NCBI GenBank assembly: GCA_947500385.1
Contig: CANMSA010000001.1
Span: forward strand, 620,001 to 684,000
Direction: 5' to 3'
DNA: 64,000 nt
DNA from: an uncultured Flavobacteriaceae bacterium
GTDB taxonomy: Bacteria > Bacteroidota > Bacteroidia > Flavobacteriales > Flavobacteriaceae
Part shown: positions 31,703 to 62,988 of the stretch, in pieces
Layout of the letters: each line of letters opens with the position of its first letter
How positions within the stretch are numbered: position 1 is the stretch's first letter
Program-made: the position numbers and the translations under genes
Notes under the pieces: generated by a model
The model's database searches: none
What the model was told of the DNA's origin: nothing
The model's input: only the letters and a program-made list of their open reading frames with translations

Positions 31703-32652
31703 AATTTGATATTCAATTCTTGTACGGTAAGATCTTCGCCCTTATAGAATTCATAGTACCACTTCTCATTTTTTTGATAAACGACACCATTTCCTTTTTC
31801 ACCCTTGGCCGTAAAAACGTTTGGTACGGAGGTCCTATACATCTTCAACACAATTTTTGGGGTGCTATCCACTAGTTGAAACCCATTTTGTATCTCTTGG
31901 GCATATAAGGTTTTGATACCACTTGCCCCCCCTTCTTCGACCTTGTTTGCTTTCCCAATATCGGAAGCCACGGGAGTGTTGGTTTCATACCTTTGTACTT
32001 CTTGCGTAGCGACTTGCTCGGTCACCTCTTTTTTTGGAGCCGCCTTCGTATAGTTTGAATCTACCGGCTCCAGATTTTTATAGGATTGATTTTCTATGGT
32101 AGCTTCTTGCTGTTCCATTGGATTGTTATCCAACCCAGGCTTCTCGGTCACAGTTCCCTCTTTTAGTTGCTTCACATCGTTCTTAAAGCTCACGGTTATC
32201 GGTTCCTCCTCTTTTTTTGCATCCCCTTTTCCATTATAACCATAGTCTAAGGAACCAAATGACTCAAACGCCCTTGAAATCGCCTCGTTGTATGCATCTT
32301 TATATTGCTTCTTTTTGCTTTTCCCCTCTTGGGTCATAAATAGTTCCTTTCCTTTACAATCGACCAAAACCAAGGTGGCCTTTGTTGTAAACATAGAGGA
32401 GTTATCATCGAGACGCACGTTCAACCCCAAACACAAATTACCATTCAAATCATCAGGAAACTGATCGTCATATACGGTTAAATATCCTTTTTGGGTAAAC
32501 AGGTGTTTTACCAAAGTACTGGTCAAGTGCTGGTTATCCTGCTTAAACGCATCAAACCTTTTTGGAACGATAATGTATTTGTAATCATTCAACTGTGCCT
32601 GTATCACACTACTGAAGGTGGTCATCAAAAATATGGATAGAAAAATACGCAT
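31699..32652 (-). CDS. Secreted protein of unknown function
   Basis: 317 residues; no family recognised. Signal peptide MRIFLSIFLMTTFSSVIQAQ. The first part (about 21-150) has the pattern DYKYIIVPKRFDAFKQDNQH, then a possible beta-domain with LVLVDCKGKELF and a helix YKDAYNEAISRAFESFG. The middle (about 155-245) is low-complexity, Glu/Thr/Pro-rich and probably disordered. The end is a small beta-rich domain that contains [21 protein letters not shown]. Its last 4 nt overlap the rarA stop region. It is separated by 88 nt from the outer-membrane-barrel gene upstream. Confidence 0.7.
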   Translation of the reverse strand: MRIFLSIFLMTTFSSVIQAQLNDYKYIIVPKRFDAFKQDNQHLTSTLVKHLFTQKGYLTVYDDQFPDDLNGNLCLGLNVRLDDNSSMFTTKATLVLVDCKGKELFMTQEGKSKKKQYKDAYNEAISRAFESFGSLDYGYNGKGDAKKEEEPITVSFKNDVKQLKEGTVTEKPGLDNNPMEQQEATIENQSYKNLEPVDSNYTKAAPKKEVTEQVATQEVQRYETNTPVASDIGKANKVEEGGASGIKTLYAQEIQNGFQLVDSTPKIVLKMYRTSVPNVFTAKGEKGNGVVYQKNEKWYYEFYKGEDLTVQELNIKF

Positions 32653-55466: not shown

Positions 55467-55856
55467 CTAGGAGGATAGAGATTGCATAAACTGGTACACA
55501 CCACTTAAATCTACCGGATACCATTGGTACAACAGGCTCCCGAAAACATACCCAAAACCCAGGCCCAATACAATGGTCAAAAACAACAATGCTTTTGAAT
55601 TTTGAGATTTAAAATTGACGAGTGAAACGGCAGACCCATTTTTAAAAATTTCAAAATCGCGACCCGAGGGGCCGGCAATATCCAATTTTGAAAAAATATC
55701 ATAGCTGTTTTGACCCAGCATAAAACGATGGGGCTTTTTTCTGCTAAAACGATGTTCAGAGATTTTTCTTCCGTTGACAAGGATGCATTCTGTTCCTAAA
55801 AAAGAGTAATGGATTTCAATTTTGTGGTTGTCCAAATAGTATTCTGCGCACTTCAT
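55467..55856 (-). CDS. Membrane protein paralogous to the 59734-60111 product
   Basis: 129 residues; no family recognised. The N-terminal ~85 residues form a beta-rich soluble part (MKCAEYYLDNHKIEIHYSFL, ECILVNGRKISEHRFS) and the C-terminal end is a transmembrane hairpin (LLFLTIVLGLGFGYVFGSLL). The pattern MKxAExxxxNxxIE, a conserved xNGxxIS, FEIxKNG-type segment and a Gly-rich membrane end is shared with the gene at 59734. These two paralogues flank the LytTR/kinase operon. It is convergent with the alpha-2-macroglobulin gene (12 nt). Confidence 0.7.
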   Translation of the reverse strand: MKCAEYYLDNHKIEIHYSFLGTECILVNGRKISEHRFSRKKPHRFMLGQNSYDIFSKLDIAGPSGRDFEIFKNGSAVSLVNFKSQNSKALLFLTIVLGLGFGYVFGSLLYQWYPVDLSGVYQFMQSLSS

Positions 55857-56196: not shown

Positions 56197-56928
56197 CTAA
56201 AGACTCATCCTATCTTTGAACAGATACGATTGTCTTCGCGACACTTCAATTTCTTCACCATTCTGCATTTCAAGTTTCAACGTACCATTAAACCATGGAA
56301 TTACCTTGGCAATAAAATTTGTGTTGACAATTTGCTGCCGGTTTGGTCGAAAGAAATAGTTGGCTGGCAACTTTTCCTCAACCTGGTTCAAAGATTTGTA
56401 GAGCAATGGCTTTTCATTTTGAAAAAACACTCGGGTATAGTTCCCTACTATTTCGAAATGTGAAATATCCCCCACTTTTACCAACCAGCATTTTTCACCA
56501 TCCTTGATAAAAATCTGACTGTTTCCCGTAAGCCGTTTTTCGGCGGGTACTTCTTCTTGTTGATTGCCTGCAAGTTTCTCTTTTACCTTTTCAACAGCCA
56601 AGGAGAAGCGTTTTTCATTTATAGGTTTTAAGAGGTAATCCAAGGCATTGTATTCAAAGGATTTTATGGCGTATTCATCATAGGCAGTCGTAAATACGGT
56701 TATAGGTACCTCATCGAGCATCTCCAATAAGTCAAAGCCATCTTTTTCGGGCATATTAATGTCTAGCAACAATAGATCAGGTCTATTTTTTTGAATCAGT
56801 TCAAAACCGTCATCCACGTTTTCCGCCTCTCCGATAAGCTCCAATGCTGAATGGCCTTTGATCAACTCCTTTAATTCGTTTCTTGCCAAACGGGAATCTT
56901 CTACGATTACAGTCTTAATAGTGCTCAT
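56197..56928 (-). CDS. LytTR-family response regulator
   Basis: 243 residues. Receiver domain 1-120 with the phospho-acceptor Asp56 (DLLLLDINMPEKDGF), the acidic pair near residue 10 (VIVEDSRLARNEL) and Thr/Lys switch residues (FTTAYDEYAIKSFEYNALDYLLKPI). The C-terminal LytTR DNA-binding domain spans about 140-240 (IFIKDGEKCWLVKVGDISHF, NYFFRPNRQQIVNTNFI). Such regulators bind direct repeats about 21 bp apart, which are found at three promoters nearby. It overlaps the upstream kinase gene by 4 nt (ATGA), so synthesis is coupled. Confidence 0.93.
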   Translation of the reverse strand: MSTIKTVIVEDSRLARNELKELIKGHSALELIGEAENVDDGFELIQKNRPDLLLLDINMPEKDGFDLLEMLDEVPITVFTTAYDEYAIKSFEYNALDYLLKPINEKRFSLAVEKVKEKLAGNQQEEVPAEKRLTGNSQIFIKDGEKCWLVKVGDISHFEIVGNYTRVFFQNEKPLLYKSLNQVEEKLPANYFFRPNRQQIVNTNFIAKVIPWFNGTLKLEMQNGEEIEVSRRQSYLFKDRMSL

Positions 56929-57977
56929 GATATAGGTATTTTAATAGTCGCGACCACCTCGGATTCCACTTCTTCCAGTAAAAAGGTGGCCTTTGTTCCG
57001 TACAGTAATCGCAACCGTTGTCGAATGTTTTGCAGTCCCAATTGGGTAGAATCCTTGTTAATCTGTAGTTTTCCAGTGTTGGTTACTTTGATCTTAAGGG
57101 TATTTTCATCTTGCGAAGTGACCAAGGAAATGACACCTCCCGCTTTTAGATTAGAAATACCATGTTTCGCGGCATTTTCTACCAACAACTGAATGATCAT
57201 CGGAGGAATCATCATACCTTCCGTGCCTTTTTCGATGTCTTTTACGTACTGTAAACGGTCCTCCATTTGGATTTTTGACAGCGCAATATAGTTTTCTACC
57301 ATTTCCAATTCTTCTTCTAGGGGAATAGCGTCGACCGTGTTCTTTACCAACGCATATTGCAGCATCTCGGAGAGTTTCGTAATCATATCGCGCGATTTGG
57401 AAACATCCTCGAGCATTAAGCCCCGAATATTGTTTAGGCTATTGAACATAAAATGAGGGTTCACCTGCCCTTTCAAAGTATTTAGTTGGGCTTCCCGTAA
57501 GGTGGCGTTCAGTTCGAGTTCTTCCAATTTGTTTTGGTTGTATTTAAAGAGAAACTTTACTGAGAAATAAATGGCCGTCCACCCGAAAATACTCAAAAAG
57601 GTTCCTAAAACGGTAGATATCCAACTTACTTTTTCTTCGATAAATGCAATCTCCCCCGGGGTGCGCTCCCAAACTGTTTCATATACGAATTCACTAAAAT
57701 AATTCAGTCCAAAATACAGAAAACCTGTAACCAACAGGCCAATGAATATCTTGATCAGGCTATGTTTGATCAAGATATTTTCCAAACGTTTCAAAAGCAA
57801 ATATCGATAGAGGCTCGTGACCAGAATACCATTGACAGAAGCCATTACAAACGAAAATAATTTGTACTGAAAGCTAAAATCAAAAGGGAGAATAAAAACC
57901 GTTACATTCACTACGCCCCACCCTACCAATTGCAGAAGCCAAAACAAGCGCGTTCTATTTCTTTTTTCAATCTGCAT
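56925..57977 (-). CDS. LytS-type sensor histidine kinase, intact
   Basis: 350 residues. Four transmembrane helices in about 10-150 (GWGVVNVTVFILPF, YKLFSFVMASVNGILVTSL, LIKIFIGLLVTGFLYFGL, STVLGTFLSIFGWTAIYF) without a large external sensor domain. The HisKA_5-type region has the phospho-acceptor His175 in QVNPHFMFNSLNNI. The ATPase domain keeps the N-box Asn268 (LLVENAAKHG), an NTGK segment (300-303) and the G-box-like GLQNIRQRL (314-322). It is the catalytically complete partner of the coupled response regulator. Its first 11 nt overlap the paralogous upstream kinase-like gene. Confidence 0.92.
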   Translation of the reverse strand: MQIEKRNRTRLFWLLQLVGWGVVNVTVFILPFDFSFQYKLFSFVMASVNGILVTSLYRYLLLKRLENILIKHSLIKIFIGLLVTGFLYFGLNYFSEFVYETVWERTPGEIAFIEEKVSWISTVLGTFLSIFGWTAIYFSVKFLFKYNQNKLEELELNATLREAQLNTLKGQVNPHFMFNSLNNIRGLMLEDVSKSRDMITKLSEMLQYALVKNTVDAIPLEEELEMVENYIALSKIQMEDRLQYVKDIEKGTEGMMIPPMIIQLLVENAAKHGISNLKAGGVISLVTSQDENTLKIKVTNTGKLQINKDSTQLGLQNIRQRLRLLYGTKATFLLEEVESEVVATIKIPIS

Positions 57978-59085
57978 GTTCCTGGTCTTTGGGAGCAGCG
58001 CTCGTTACGATGTTCAAGGGTTTAAACGGTAAGGTCACCAAATAACGAGTACCGGTATGTGCGAAGTCCTCTATAAACTGTGCCCTATCACCATACATCA
58101 GTCGCAGCCGATGGGTGATTTTATTTTTTAGTCGATCGGTTTCCTTTGAACCGCCGGTACTACCCGAGTGGCCCACAGAAATTTGAATGGCCTCTTTTTC
58201 TTTCACCACTTTTAGTTGAATCTCTCCCCCTTCACGTCGCAACAAAATGCCGTTTTTAGAAGTGTGTTCGACAAGGTTGTGCACCAGCATGGGCGGTATC
58301 TCCATTTTTAGGGCCTCTTTTTGAATGTCGTATCGTATTTGAAATCTATCCTGGTATTGAATCTGAACGAGCGCAACGTAATTTTCTATCATCTCGAGTT
58401 CCTCTTCCAACAAGACCGTATTTACATTGTTCTTCGTTAACGAATACCGTAGCATCTCCGATAATTTGGTGAGCATGGTGCGGGACTTTGGAACATCTTC
58501 CAACATTAAGCCTTTGATATTGTTTAGGGAGGTGAACATGAACTGAGGATTCATATGCCCTTTAAGCGTATTCAACTGTGCTTGCTTTACCTTTTGCTTA
58601 AGCTCTAAACGATGTACGCGCTGGTTGTTTGCTTGTCGTATGACCTTAATGACGAAGTAAAAAACCGTCCAGCCCGTAACTATGATCATATAACCTACAT
58701 ACTGGCGAATATCGTTCCAACGGTAGCGTTCCTTGGGTTCATTGAAAAACTCCGTTTTATCTTCGATTATCAAACGCATCATCTTCCCAAGGGCGTATCC
58801 CGACCAATACGAAATGTAAGGGAACAGGAGCGACGTGCATACCACAATCAACACAATCTTTAGGATATCAACTGCCTTGAATTCCTCTAGGTTCACAAAA
58901 CGTCGTAAAAACCATCGGGTCAACGAAGTAACAAAAATACCTACGACCATAAAGCCAAGAAGGGTTATGAAGAGCCCTATGCTGTTCTTGGCAATTTTAT
59001 TCACGGTGATCACGAATAAACCGAAGCTACCCCATCCTACCGTCTGTAGGACCCAAAAAATATGTTTGGTTAAAAATTTATTCAT
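57967..59085 (-). CDS. Degenerate LytS-type kinase paralogue (predicted pseudokinase)
   Basis: 372 residues, clearly homologous over its full length to the next gene product (shared LNTLKG..NP.FMF.SLNNI, GLMLEDV.KSR, TKLSEML.Y, LEEELEM.ENY.AL). Four N-terminal transmembrane helices. The phospho-acceptor His is Gln181 (MNPQFMFTSLNNI; codon CAG against CAT in the paralogue). The N-box Asn is His274 (LVEHTSKNG), the NTGK turn has become GHSGS and the G-box is RLKNKITHRL. It therefore should neither bind ATP normally nor phosphorylate. The open frame is intact, so the protein is likely kept for another role, such as dimerising with or sensing for the active kinase. It overlaps that gene by 11 nt. 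Confidence 0.88.
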   Translation of the reverse strand: MNKFLTKHIFWVLQTVGWGSFGLFVITVNKIAKNSIGLFITLLGFMVVGIFVTSLTRWFLRRFVNLEEFKAVDILKIVLIVVCTSLLFPYISYWSGYALGKMMRLIIEDKTEFFNEPKERYRWNDIRQYVGYMIIVTGWTVFYFVIKVIRQANNQRVHRLELKQKVKQAQLNTLKGHMNPQFMFTSLNNIKGLMLEDVPKSRTMLTKLSEMLRYSLTKNNVNTVLLEEELEMIENYVALVQIQYQDRFQIRYDIQKEALKMEIPPMLVHNLVEHTSKNGILLRREGGEIQLKVVKEKEAIQISVGHSGSTGGSKETDRLKNKITHRLRLMYGDRAQFIEDFAHTGTRYLVTLPFKPLNIVTSAAPKDQEHAD

Positions 59086-59280: not shown

Positions 59281-59631
59281 TTATCTATTGTCGGCAGCTT
59301 TTCGGGTAATTACGAAATACAGCACATATCCCCAACCAAAAATAGCATGTAATAGTACCCATCTGATCGATTTATTCCGTTCCCACGAGGCCAACATGGC
59401 AATTACCGTACCGATACCAAGGCCTTTTTTTATGGAGAAGTGACCAAACATCCCCTTGAGCATTCGCCCCAGTTCAAAACCGGTACTATATGCGCTACCA
59501 TCTCCAAATTTCTGGGCGACAATGGTTAATAACATGCCGGCAAAGAGCACAAAAATCAGTACGATACTTAGGGTTCCCAGGAACAACCTATGGTTGCTTT
59601 TTTGACGTGGGTTTGGAAATGAACTGGTCAT
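59281..59631 (-). CDS. Small membrane protein under the predicted LytTR operator
   Basis: 116 residues; no family recognised. Hydrophilic start TSSFPNPRQKSNHR, then three hydrophobic segments: LFLGTLSIVLIFVLFAGMLL, GLGIGTVIAMLAS and WVLLHAIFGWGYVLYFVI, and a basic end TRKAADNR. Between the first two is a polar loop with GSAYSTGFELGRMLKGMFG. The promoter 24 nt before its ATG carries the shared 21-bp-spaced operator, so it is a predicted target of the adjacent LytTR regulator. Confidence 0.7.
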   Translation of the reverse strand: MTSSFPNPRQKSNHRLFLGTLSIVLIFVLFAGMLLTIVAQKFGDGSAYSTGFELGRMLKGMFGHFSIKKGLGIGTVIAMLASWERNKSIRWVLLHAIFGWGYVLYFVITRKAADNR

Positions 59632-59654: not shown

Positions 59655-59727
59655 TAAAAATAAGGTATGGTGTGCGTATTTGAAATGGATTTATGGCGAA
59701 CGGTAGATTCTACCCATTGGACGGCAA
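59655..59727 (-). promoter_or_regulatory. Promoter with LytTR-type double operator (gene at 59281)
   Basis: Reverse strand: half-site TGCCGTCCAAT (CCGT starts at 59724), second half-site TACCGTTCGCCAT (CCGTT starts at 59703), exactly 21 bp apart. TTTCA at the -33 position and TATTTTTA (59662-59655) as the -7 element follow; the -7 element starts 41 bp after the second half-site. This is the same layout as at 60313-60384 and 62915-62988. Confidence 0.65.
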
Positions 59728-59733
59728 CATGGC

Positions 59734-60111
59734 TTAAACTACTGTACCAAGCCATTGTATAAACTTGGTCAAGGTATAGCCGAATATAAACCCGCCCACC
59801 AAACCAACGACCAAACCTACAATGATCGTGGCGATTCGGTTTTTTGACCGTAGTGTTTTTGAAAATTTGTTTTCCAAGGTTAACGGCAAACCGTTCTTGT
59901 AGAGTAAAATGCTCATACCCGTATTATTTTTGAAAGATATTGTTGGGCGTATTATGTAATTGTCATTCCCTATTTGAAAGAAATGGTCCCTGCCAAAAAA
60001 GGAATACCCCTTTGAAATCTCTTCCCCGTTCATATGAACCGATTCAACTCCCGTTGCAGCGTTAAATACTTCTACAATTTGGTTTTCGATATGAAATTCT
60101 GCGTACTTCAT
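59734..60111 (-). CDS. Membrane protein paralogous to the 55467-55856 product
   Basis: 125 residues from the ATG at 60111, chosen because MKYAEFHIENQIVEVFNAAT aligns with the MKCAEYYLDNHKIEIHYSFL start of the paralogue; the longer frame adds 23 residues with no counterpart. A beta-rich N-terminal part (SVHMNGEEISKGYSFFGRDH, ISFKNNTGMSILLYKNGLPL) is followed by Lys/Arg-rich linker and a Gly-rich membrane hairpin (IATIIVGLVVGLVGGFIFGY). No family recognised. It begins 28 nt after the 46-residue membrane protein gene and is probably co-transcribed from the LytTR-type promoter. Confidence 0.7.
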   Translation of the reverse strand: MKYAEFHIENQIVEVFNAATGVESVHMNGEEISKGYSFFGRDHFFQIGNDNYIIRPTISFKNNTGMSILLYKNGLPLTLENKFSKTLRSKNRIATIIVGLVVGLVGGFIFGYTLTKFIQWLGTVV

Positions 60112-60139
60112 GGTGTTGACTTTAAACCTGTTTATTGTA

Positions 60140-60280
60140 TTAATGGGCAATATGAAAGAGGAAAGCGCCCAGAGAAGCACCGGCCTTGAACAATAGCACC
60201 GACCCTATTACGGAACAAAGAATGGTTGCTTTAATGATTTCAGTTTTTTTACGTAATTCGTTTTTATAGCTCGTTTTCAT
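60140..60280 (-). CDS. 46-residue membrane protein
   Basis: From the ATG at 60280 the protein starts MKTSYKNELRKKTEIIKATI and has one membrane helix (TILCSVIGSVLLFKAGASLG) with a short end AFLFHIAH. The longer frame from 60385 would run through the promoter and operator and is rejected. It is the first gene after the LytTR-type operator at 60313-60384 and precedes the 59734 gene by 28 nt. No family recognised. Confidence 0.6.
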   Translation of the reverse strand: MKTSYKNELRKKTEIIKATILCSVIGSVLLFKAGASLGAFLFHIAH

Positions 60281-60312
60281 GATATAAGATTTTATGTTGT
60301 TATTATTTGATA

Positions 60313-60384
60313 TAAAAGTACGGTGAAACAGCCTCCTGTGAAACGACATTATGACCAACGGTACATTTGGCCGGCCGAACGGCA
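60313..60384 (-). promoter_or_regulatory. Promoter with LytTR-type double operator (small membrane gene pair)
   Basis: Reverse strand: TGCCGTTCGG (CCGTT starts at 60382) and TGTACCGTTGGTCATA (CCGTT starts at 60361), exactly 21 bp apart. TTTCA at the -33 position and TACTTTTA (60320-60313) as -7 element; the -7 element starts 41 bp after the second half-site. The 16-bp block TGTACCGTTGGTCATA recurs identically before the S9 peptidase gene. Confidence 0.7.
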
Positions 60385-60392
60385 AACCAACC

Positions 60393-60405
60393 GTTAATCA
60401 TTAAC
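60393..60405. repeat. 13-bp palindrome next to the LytTR operator
   Basis: GTTAAT-C-ATTAAC is a perfect palindrome, 9 bp upstream of the double operator and about 25 bp from the terminator of the S9 peptidase gene. It may be an additional operator; it can also be chance in A/T-rich DNA. Confidence 0.3.
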
Positions 60406-60430
60406 AATCAAATATTTACGAACTATGATT

Positions 60431-60462
60431 CACAAAAAAAGGGCGCTGTTCAGCGCCCTTTT
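60431..60462 (-). terminator. Terminator of the S9 peptidase gene
   Basis: On the reverse strand AAAAGGGCGCTG (60462-60451) pairs perfectly with CAGCGCCCTTTT (60448-60437), with a T tract of seven at 60440-60434. It lies 26 nt after the stop codon. Confidence 0.9.
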
Positions 60463-60487
60463 CTCTCTAATAAAATGGTGGTATGTG

Positions 60488-62809
60488 CTAGTCTTTTATC
60501 GGCGCTCCTTTTTCCTGTGCGCCTAAATGTTTTGCGTAAAAGCCCATCATTGATTTGTAGAGTGCAATCGAATTTTCTTCTTTCGCGAAGCCATGGCCTT
60601 CATCGTATTTTACCATATAGGGCACATCAAAACCTTTTTTACGGAGTGCACTAACGATTTGATCTGATTCGTCTATGTTTACTCTAGGGTCATTGGCACC
60701 TTGCACCACGAACAAGGGTTTCTTGATCTTGTCTATTTGAAATACGGGAGATACTTCTTCCATAATGGCTTTCTCTTCCGCGATATCCTCATCATACCAA
60801 ATTTCCTTGATAATTTTCAAATAAGGTTTCCAATAAGGAGGAATGGTTTGCATAAAGGTGAAAAGGTTGGAAACCCCTACATAGTCTACCCCACAAGCAT
60901 ACAAATCGGGGGTTTTTGTTAGGCCTCGTAAAACGGCATACCCGCCATGGCTTCCGCCATAGATCGCCGCTTTGTCCTTATCTACCCAGCCTTGGTCTAC
61001 AACATACTGTAGCCCATCTTCCACATCGTCCATTGCTTTTCTTCCAATTTGTTTAAAACCAGATTCCAAAAACTCTTTTCCATACCCTCCCGAGATTCGA
61101 AAGTTTACCTGTAGTGTCGCATAGCCTCTACTGGCAAAAAGTTGGGCCTCGGGGTTAAAACCCCATGAGTCCCGTATGCCTTGCGGACCACCGTGTGGGT
61201 TCACGATAACAGGAACCTTTTGCCCCTCTTGGGCCGCTTTTGGCAAGGTAATGTACCCATGCAAAGTAAGCCCATCTCTACTCTTGAAAGTAATGGGTCG
61301 CATTTCGGCCATATCACCCTCTTTAAGTTGTGGCATTAAATTAAACAGCTCTTTGAACTCGTCTTTCGCCACATCGTAAGAGAAGTATTTCCCGTACAGT
61401 TTATCACTAGTGGTATAAATGAGGTAATTGTTTTCATCATCGGTATAATCGGCAATGCTGTATTGCTTGTTACCGAATTGTTTTTGAAATTTAGCATGTA
61501 GCTCCTTATAATAGTCACTTACCGGTACAATATGCCGTTTTTCACCCTCATAACTATAGTAGTCTAGTTCATACCCCCGCTTTCGCGAAACCGCAATATT
61601 GGATACATCGTAGTTATCATTCGAAAACAGTTTTTCTATGATTTTATCTTCTTTTAAATCATATAGCAGTACCTCGCTCTTATCCCCGTCCAAATTCGAA
61701 ACGACATAAGCATCATGCTCGTATTCAGTTGCGTAGTTGAATCGGATGATGGAAAAAGCGTCCTTCCAGTTTAAACTTTTCAATAGTGTATAATTAACCC
61801 CGTCCTTGGCATAATACATATCTTGTTCGACACCGTCCCGAAGTCTTGTAAATCCTTTTAACGCGCCATTTTTATCGAAATCGTATCCCATAATCGGATT
61901 CGCAACGTCTTCATTCTTATATAGTTGCTCCATTTCTCCAGTAACCACATTTATCTTGTAAGGCTCAAATACCTGGGGATTGTTTTTATTCATTTGCACT
62001 ACAATGTGATCTTTATCTTCCTTCAACAACTCACTGAATTGCGCTTGCACCCCTTCAAAAGGTGTCAAATCTTTTTGATCGGAACCATCTAGGTTTACGG
62101 CGTACACATGGTAGTTTTCATCACCCCCTTGGTCCATAACAAAAACCAAACGCTCACTATTGATCCATCCGTAGCCGCGAATCAACTCTTCTTTTTCCTC
62201 GATGGCACGCTTTACGGTACCCGTAGCAATTTCTTTTACAAAAATATGGCGCTTCCCCTTGTCATCTTTTTCTCGGTACGACATGTACTTGCCATCTGGT
62301 GAAAAACGAAAGGTAGACGCTTTGGGCTTTGCAAAATAATCTTCGACCGTATAGTCAAAATCACCATCGGCCAAGGAGGATAGTTTTACCAGTTCTTCTT
62401 CCGAACTAGGCAGTTCCGTATTCCCGGGAATGGTTTTTATGGTCTTTTCCAACGCAAGAGGCAGTTCCATACCACCTTGGTAAAAAGTACCTTCCATTTT
62501 CTCCCCGTTCAAAGTTCCCACATACTTGATACCTGCTTGTTTGTATTGTATGGTAAGGGTATTATCGTCATAAGTAGTGACATCCATAGGTATGTCCGTA
62601 GCCCCTTGTGAAGGGCTATCCATGGTGCTAGTGAGTTCCCCATCGGTTTCGTTCACGTTAAATATTAGAGGCATTTCCGTGCCCTGAACCGCAAGGGTCC
62701 CTTTCCAAGAGCCAGCAACTTCCTGCGCATGGGATTGAAAAGCCATTAACAAAAAGGCCATTGTAAGTAATTGGCCCAGCATTTTTTTCATCGTTTTCAT
62801 TGTTTTCAT
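60488..62809 (-). CDS. S9-family (prolyl oligopeptidase-like) secreted peptidase
   Basis: 773 residues. Signal peptide ends near QSHAQ (about residue 28); three close ATG codons (MKTMKTMKKM) make the exact start uncertain. A 95-residue N-terminal beta domain (VAGSWKGTLAVQGTEMPLIF) precedes the seven-bladed propeller (about 150-490). The alpha/beta-hydrolase domain has the catalytic triad Ser620 (YGGSHGGY), Asp707 (GANDPRVN) and His739 (DEGHGF). It should cleave short peptides in the periplasm. Its promoter carries the same 21-bp-spaced operator as two small membrane-protein genes, so it is a predicted target of the LytTR regulator. Confidence 0.9.
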   Translation of the reverse strand: MKTMKTMKKMLGQLLTMAFLLMAFQSHAQEVAGSWKGTLAVQGTEMPLIFNVNETDGELTSTMDSPSQGATDIPMDVTTYDDNTLTIQYKQAGIKYVGTLNGEKMEGTFYQGGMELPLALEKTIKTIPGNTELPSSEEELVKLSSLADGDFDYTVEDYFAKPKASTFRFSPDGKYMSYREKDDKGKRHIFVKEIATGTVKRAIEEKEELIRGYGWINSERLVFVMDQGGDENYHVYAVNLDGSDQKDLTPFEGVQAQFSELLKEDKDHIVVQMNKNNPQVFEPYKINVVTGEMEQLYKNEDVANPIMGYDFDKNGALKGFTRLRDGVEQDMYYAKDGVNYTLLKSLNWKDAFSIIRFNYATEYEHDAYVVSNLDGDKSEVLLYDLKEDKIIEKLFSNDNYDVSNIAVSRKRGYELDYYSYEGEKRHIVPVSDYYKELHAKFQKQFGNKQYSIADYTDDENNYLIYTTSDKLYGKYFSYDVAKDEFKELFNLMPQLKEGDMAEMRPITFKSRDGLTLHGYITLPKAAQEGQKVPVIVNPHGGPQGIRDSWGFNPEAQLFASRGYATLQVNFRISGGYGKEFLESGFKQIGRKAMDDVEDGLQYVVDQGWVDKDKAAIYGGSHGGYAVLRGLTKTPDLYACGVDYVGVSNLFTFMQTIPPYWKPYLKIIKEIWYDEDIAEEKAIMEEVSPVFQIDKIKKPLFVVQGANDPRVNIDESDQIVSALRKKGFDVPYMVKYDEGHGFAKEENSIALYKSMMGFYAKHLGAQEKGAPIKD

Positions 62810-62914
62810 TGTTTCTTTTTTAGCGGTTTACATTTTTTTAAATCGTGTTCCCCCTATTTAGTAGTCGAAAACCTTGATTTTGTTACAGATGGAGTACACA
62901 AACTTAAATTTTAA

Positions 62915-62988
62915 CAAATATAACGGTGCCCGCATGGCCTTTTGTGAAAAATATGACCAACGGTACAAATGAAGTTGTGAGCGGTAAA
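62915..62988 (-). promoter_or_regulatory. Promoter with LytTR-type double operator (S9 peptidase)
   Basis: Reverse strand: TACCGCTCA (CCGC starts at 62985) and TGTACCGTTGGTCATA (CCGTT starts at 62964), exactly 21 bp apart. TATATTTG (62922-62915), an exact TAnnTTTG, begins 42 bp after the second half-site. The leader to the peptidase ATG is about 100 nt. Confidence 0.65.

Follow-up and report, generated by a model that had tools for sequence, protein, structure and literature searches.

A conserved LytTR-type double operator at three promoters of an uncultured Flavobacteriaceae bacterium

What reads a pair of short direct repeats that recurs in front of three neighboring promoters, and to what effect? 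The question is raised by a 64,000-nucleotide stretch from an uncultured Flavobacteriaceae bacterium (GenBank assembly GCA_947500385.1, contig CANMSA010000001.1, positions 620,001 to 684,000; hereafter the window, meaning this stretch at its full length). Here, a LytTR response regulator and two paralogous histidine kinases (HK1 and HK2) lie beside three reverse-strand promoters, all within 59655-62984 and each with two CCG-type half-sites at a 21-bp period. The operator is real and conserved and, judging from comparative sequence evidence, it is very probably read by the adjacent regulator. Overall, the locus looks like a small self-amplifying switch.

Geometry and conservation of the operator

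An initial annotation, made from the letters alone, proposed that three promoters share a LytTR-type double operator (operators A, B, and C; Table 1). The observation holds up, and the geometry proves slightly tighter than first described. Direct reading bears out both the 21-bp spacing in all three pairs and the 16-bp block said to be identical in two of them (TGTACCGTTGGTCATA, common to operators B and C). The third pair, placed at 62985/62964, was one base too high, with true starts at 62984/62963; of the proposed -7 offsets of 41, 41, and 42 bp, the first two stand, and the third becomes 41 with the corrected coordinates. Like other LytTR-type promoters, each therefore features two direct-repeat half-sites with a 21-bp period at a constant distance immediately upstream of the core promoter (41 bp from the -7 element in 3/3 promoters), and the second half-site sits inside TACCGTTSGYCATA. 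For comparison, the -7 consensus of Flavobacterium psychrophilum is TAnnTTTG (PMC9723704).

Relatives of the locus were taken as the best 80 of 575 regulator-encoding stretches, with a regulator identity of 63-82%. They derive mostly from flavobacterial genera, which we take to be members of Flavobacteriaceae, and include one Saprospiraceae bin; a tblastn search detected the kinase HK2 in all 80 loci and obg in 55 of them. A 45-column matrix seeded from these loci only, with the window left out, ranks the same three sites first in the window (scores in Table 1), and the runner-up reaches 11.2 bits. The same three also lead with a matrix from 41 sites of more distant loci (34.4, 32.6, and 29.0 bits; runner-up 17.2). 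The runner-up place, at 31735 on the forward strand (11-17 bits), is without a -7 element at 41 bp and was dismissed as chance.

In the relatives, the first matrix recovered 110 sites at a cut-off of 13 bits (the lowest at about 25 bits) in 75/80 loci, and a reversed-matrix control gave 1 match. All 110 operators are on the regulator's strand and, in loci longer than 20 kb, no more than about 6.1 kb from it. The spacing to the promoter is equally constrained: TAnnTT begins exactly 41 bp from the second CC at 103/110 sites, at 40 in four and at 42 in one, which accounts for five of the seven exceptions. At offset 41, T and A are each present in 95% of sites, and the two T further along are found in 100% and 99%; the -33 position, where TTTG would be expected, is T-rich and G-poor. 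The comparison with related genomes that had been suggested as a check thus came out clearly in favor of the operator.

The placement of the operator relative to genes is likewise recurrent. By a simple caller of open reading frames (ORFs), the first ORF 3' of the 110 operators encodes a small protein in 57 cases, an S9 or similar hydrolase in 30, a kinase in 20, and a member of a GldB-like lipoprotein group in three; the operator in front of the S9 peptidase is kept in many relatives. In three loci labelled Tenacibaculum (L089, L090, and L101), the operator is followed by a gene from a single cluster, and the L089 member of that cluster matches the GldB lipoprotein family in a Pfam run on L089 alone.

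Binder, direction of control, and extent of the regulon

Simple counts give a mixed answer as to whether the pattern exceeds chance. A consensus from the three sites, allowing up to two mismatches, matches the window at four places, compared with a mean of 0.79 for shuffles of it, of which 1/100 attained four. The excess over shuffled sequence, whose absence the initial annotation had named as a ground for refutation, is present, but the comparison is a weak test because the consensus was written from the three sites themselves. A scan of the whole genome with the pattern did recover the three sites with at most one mismatch, but its count is hardly above that of the backward control (four matches vs. 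three). The fourth match, C6:29484, falls within a 799-aa open frame, lacks a -7 element, and was rejected. A looser consensus, with up to two mismatches, has 79 matches genome-wide vs. 66 for the backward control, which renders the loose count uninformative. With a genome count so near its control, we base the case on matrix scores, geometry, and conservation. Were the repeats a chance or generic promoter feature, as the near-equal genome-wide counts might suggest, the relatives-only matrix scores, the fixed 41-bp geometry, and the strand and gene placement would be very hard to account for; a LytTR-like repeat pair at this layout is also absent from 21 upstream regions (window 1-55000) and 154 far-flank regions of the relatives. 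We consider such an origin scarcely credible.

The link to the adjacent regulator draws on co-occurrence and placement. Among 119 genomes, our own included, 12 contain an exact operator match. These are 8/11 genomes with a regulator ortholog of at least 67% identity vs. 4/108 others (Fisher p 9e-8), or 7/10 vs. 4/108 when our own genome is excluded; since contigs of at least two genomes (G003 and G006) are also among the 80 loci, and our own genome is included, the test is not fully independent. Where both are on one contig, site and regulator are no more than about 7 kb apart; in G007, whose assembly is fragmented, the two fall on separate contigs. There are 46 LytTR matches in our own genome, and near the other 45 the matrix detects only two weak matches (both in L178, at 12.7 and 6.2 bits, and without a -7 element at 41 bp); no comparable operator was found in 48 stretches, 427 kb in all, among which are the neighborhoods of these 45 genes. 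The weak matches elsewhere, the co-occurrence, and a site heading the regulator's own operon together point to the adjacent regulator as the binder. This agrees with the initial annotation, which had named the regulator as the likely controller of a compact regulon. The regulon is supported as compact and mostly local: matches in our own genome with at most one mismatch comprise the three sites and the one in a coding frame.

Alongside the one-mismatch genome count, several observations weigh against this picture. Five of the 80 relative loci are without a site; three have little upstream sequence (L050, L065, and L110) and two are unexplained (L107 and L116). The relatives share common ancestry, so their 110 sites are not independent. 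By exact search alone, 3/11 ortholog genomes (G008, G064, and G067) have no operator match, and four genomes without a close ortholog contain one exact match each; three of these score 6.7, 14.5, and 24.6 bits without a -7 element at 41 bp, and the fourth scores below 5 bits. Finally, G003 harbors a 35-bit site on a contig other than that of the regulator (L140:1498 = G003:C5:93360). It lies before a gene pair that resembles an ATP-binding cassette (ABC) transporter by eye, without TA at the -7 position, and indicates that the regulon is not strictly local everywhere.

On balance, we consider it highly probable that the neighboring LytTR regulator binds and activates the three promoters, namely those of its own operon, the small-protein operon, and the S9 peptidase. 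The active kinase HK2 would sense a membrane signal, perhaps under modulation by the pseudokinase HK1, and the phosphorylated regulator would bind as a dimer, with one monomer per half-site, two helical turns apart. The bound dimer, just upstream of the weak -33 region, would assist RNA polymerase in initiating at the -7 element and so turn on the regulator's own operon (116-aa protein, HK1, HK2, and regulator), the operon of the 46-aa and 125-aa proteins, and the S9 peptidase. As operator A heads the regulator's own operon, the circuit would be autoregulatory and, with activation, subject to positive feedback.

Two other readings concern who binds and to what effect. A fixed site just upstream of a weak core promoter fits an activator, by analogy with the known promoter type, but position alone is no proof of activation and some LytTR proteins repress, e.g., PlnD (PMC2714321). 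A closed, autorepressed loop is nevertheless unlikely given that the operator lies wholly upstream of the -33 region, at the known LytTR activator distance, and that the -33 region looks weak. We give somewhat less credence still to the idea that another LytTR protein of the genome binds the sites, with the neighboring regulator only one of several users. The 46 LytTR matches in the genome, and the resemblance between candidate half-sites of different members, speak for it. However, the operator heads this regulator's operon in relatives and co-occurs with the regulator, and around other LytTR genes there are just the two weak matches without a -7 element. Furthermore, an FR[AVT]NRQQ stretch is kept in at least 66/80 regulators (79 from relatives plus the window's own, with the variant FRPNRQQ), whereas the two paralogs examined have HNSY and HRSY there. 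Activation by the adjacent regulator therefore remains our preferred interpretation.

Genes of the system and a predicted pseudokinase

In order of transcription, operator C is followed by the S9 peptidase; operator B by the 46-aa and 125-aa proteins; and operator A by the 116-aa protein, HK1, HK2, and the regulator. Operator A thus heads the LytTR regulator's operon, whose membership we infer from gene order and strand. As in LytS/LytTR two-component systems, a PF06580 kinase adjoins a receiver-LytTR regulator; the latter falls below the curated cut-off of the BtsR equivalog NF008677 (160.1 vs. 246 bits).

Table 1. Operators, -7 elements, and genes of the LytTR locus in the window.
Feature	Position	Strand	Sequence, score, or basis
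Operator A (half-sites 59724-59716 and 59703-59695, period 21 bp)	59695..59724	-	CCGTCCAAT/CCGTTCGCC; 35.4 bits, relatives-only matrix
-7 element A, TATTTTTA	59655..59662	-	41 bp from second half-site start
Operator B (half-sites 60382-60374 and 60361-60353)	60353..60382	-	CCGTTCGGC/CCGTTGGTC; 42.5 bits, relatives-only matrix
-7 element B, TACTTTTA	60313..60320	-	offset 41 bp
Operator C (half-sites 62984-62976 and 62963-62955)	62955..62984	-	CCGCTCACA/CCGTTGGTC; 37.8 bits, relatives-only matrix
-7 element C, TATATTTG	62915..62922	-	offset 41 bp
129-aa paralog of the 125-aa protein, downstream of regulator	55467..55856	-	29% identity
Response regulator, receiver and LytTR, presumed operator binder	56197..56928	-	Pfam PF00072 (73.7 bits) and PF04397
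HK2, LytS-type histidine kinase, NPHFMFN and N-box intact	56925..57977	-	PF06580; motif columns
HK1, paralogous predicted pseudokinase, phospho-His to Gln, N-box Asn to His	57967..59085	-	PF06580; motif columns
116-aa hydrophobic protein, first gene after operator A	59281..59631	-	ORF; one relative in 80 loci, 38% identity
125-aa protein after operator B, predicted beta domain and one long helix	59734..60111	-	structure model
46-aa small hydrophobic protein, first gene after operator B	60140..60280	-	ORF; ATG 60280 picked within longer frame
S9 family peptidase (prolyl oligopeptidase family) after operator C	60488..62809	-	PF00326, 158.7 bits

The small proteins matched no family above cut-off in Pfam and NCBIfam profile searches, PADLOC gave no match for six proteins, and the matrix scan of the window found no operator before the 129-aa paralog. 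The 125-aa protein, which together with its 129-aa paralog flanks the system, is modelled with eight strands and one long helix (mean predicted local distance difference test, pLDDT, 79; predicted template modelling score, pTM, 0.54). A solved-structure search with its family returned two weak Rad50 matches alone (E 0.08); its beta domain is perhaps similar to the eukaryotic FAIM fold.

The two kinases are paralogs (38% identical) that differ at catalytic motifs, with NPQFMF and EHTSKNG in HK1 corresponding to NPHFMF and ENAAKHG in HK2. Across 81 aligned kinases (79 from relatives, each longer than 300 aa, and the two from the window; five shorter cluster members were dropped), the phospho-His is kept in 75. 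All six losses occur in the upstream member of a tandem locus (the window, L045, L050, L052, L053, and L077), and these same kinases are also without the N-box Asn (6/6); the combined loss is seen in 0/75 of the remaining kinases. HK1 shares 59% identity with its L045 ortholog, and their differences by codon position (0.34/0.18/0.65), which are close to those of HK2 (0.27/0.18/0.56), speak for selection on the protein. HK1 has therefore lost both the phospho-acceptor His and the N-box Asn within a conserved, intact frame, as is characteristic of pseudo-histidine kinases, and we predict that it is a conserved pseudokinase beside its intact paralog HK2.

A glycine motif, G[FY]xx[GT][KR], is present in HK1, in the proteins encoded at 59281-59631 and 59734-60111, and in small operon proteins of L054, L062, L072, L074, and L106. 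Near a hydrophobic stretch, it occurs in 11/71 small hydrophobic operon proteins and 7/79 kinases vs. 6/322 other hydrophobic proteins (10/472 before kinase-like proteins were removed from this background). As the motif was picked after inspection and some members are homologous, it is a lead only.

A possible wider rule and relation to known systems

A second LytTR gene of the same genome, in stretch L142, features an operator of similar layout: CCAATCATAC and CCATTGATACATC at a period of 21, with TATTTTTG 40 bp after the CC (L142:6411-6512, about G000:C2:437910 onwards). Its half-sites differ from those of the focal operators. Scored with a consensus written from those same loci (maximum 22), 14/16 ortholog loci (L215-L230) reach at least 17/22 with TAnnTT at exactly 40; the exceptions are L222, with no TAnnTT at 40, and L227, with no site. 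In the more diverged loci L231-L244 (n = 14), TAnnTT is at 40 in six and at 41 in two, following a poorer best match (14-18/22), and six have it at neither distance.

We also scanned the non-coding sequence that precedes the 45 LytTR loci (58 regions) across spacings of 14-29 and distances of 30-51, a total of 352 cells. With the strictest filter, cells (21,40) and (21,41) hold 6/19 matches (200 shuffles: mean 0.03, maximum 1), and these two target cells still hold 4/15 when L142 is left out. Independent controls place 0/1 (window 1-55000, 21 regions) and 0/20 (relatives' far flanks, 154 regions) in the target cells. Other genes of the same neighborhoods place 4/23 there; these may themselves be targets, so that control is not clean. 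Other results weaken a wider rule. When coding sequence is included, counts upstream of the 45 other LytTR genes show no preference for 21 bp (21 for spacing 21, 33 for 24, 20 for 15, and 20 for 27). Under two less strict settings (half-site score 5), more matches fall in cell (21,31) than in (21,40), and 7/118 and 8/282 were observed vs. shuffle maxima of 3 and 6. The 21-bp preference emerges in non-coding sequence and with a LytTR-like half-site filter; this filter was written after the focal and L142 operators had been seen, and the preference is partly post hoc. Taken together, the post hoc filter, the blur with looser filters, and the null coding-inclusive count make the rule plausible, not settled.

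Single candidates with the 21/40-41 layout were noted in our own genome at L148, L155, L160, L177, and L143. Those of L148, L155, and L160 precede kinase-like membrane proteins, as judged by eye from the first residues. With the expression used, the L160 candidate was found in our own genome alone and not in four orthologs and one own-genome paralog.

These observations could be joined in a single reading, in which 21/40-41-to-TAnnTTTG is a rule for LytTR activators shared across Flavobacteriaceae, irrespective of half-site sequence, and the focal locus is a closed three-promoter loop tuned by the pseudokinase and the glycine-motif small proteins, with the motif shared between small membrane proteins and a membrane helix of HK1. 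We put this forward tentatively, as a possibility that we would rate at somewhat under even. If the geometry does hold for other members, many regulons of the group could be predicted from sequence, with 46 LytTR matches in this genome alone. At the focal locus, the conserved operator of fixed geometry already yields a named candidate binding site, along with predictions of the start sites and the regulon, and the conserved pseudokinase raises a second testable question of how the loop is tuned.

A literature search at the level of titles and abstract openings returned no LytTR operator or regulon in Flavobacteriaceae, and a phage-shock paper (PMC11237479), considered as LytTR context, did not match. 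The operator geometry itself is already known from Firmicutes LytTR promoters (PMC6193735, PMC2714321). The LytTR Regulatory Systems, which comprise HdrRM, BrsRM, and relatives, have 9-bp direct repeats, most of them separated by 12 bp (a 21-bp period) and most located 10 bp upstream of the -35 element. The repeats head the regulator's own operon and drive positive feedback; half-sites include ACCACTTAT/ACCGCTTAT, and for hdrRM, binding needs the repeats and mutated repeats lower reporter activity (PMC6193735). By our arithmetic, 10 bp, a 6-bp -35 element, and a 17-bp spacer amount to 41 bp from CC to -10, as here, while other rows of the same table give somewhat different values. The regulators of those systems, however, have no receiver and are held by a membrane inhibitor (PMC6193735), whereas the regulator described here has a PF00072 receiver and belongs to a full two-component system with a Bacteroidota -7 element; it is thus not a LytTR Regulatory System in the strict sense. 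Similar operons predicted in B. thetaiotaomicron and B. ovatus likewise feature CC-type direct repeats before a TATCTTTG -7 element, but with 11-bp repeats, a period of 22, about 44 bp from CC to -7 by our arithmetic, and a membrane-bound regulator (PMC6193735).

Plantaricin regulators PlnC and PlnD also use 9-bp tandem repeats with a 12-bp spacer directly upstream of the promoter. Their co-operative dimer binding requires that period, and the right repeat is better conserved, as is the second half-site here; unlike the present locus, they serve bacteriocin quorum sensing in a Firmicute (PMC2714321). BtsS/BtsR and YpdA/YpdB share the combination of a LytS-type kinase with a LytTR response regulator and have few known targets, but these are pyruvate-related transport genes, unlike here (PMC5552118).

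HK1, for its part, is of the PF06580 type and sits beside its intact paralog. Presumably, it differs in family from the Caulobacter and ChrS pseudokinases. It is comparable with both in that a histidine kinase would have been turned into a non-kinase regulator, as reported for a repurposed Caulobacter kinase (PMC4211667) and a ChrS variant (PMC9491836). As far as the literature searched reaches, what the Flavobacteriaceae locus adds to these known systems is this member of the LytTR promoter type, its regulon, the predicted pseudokinase, and a possible wider rule.

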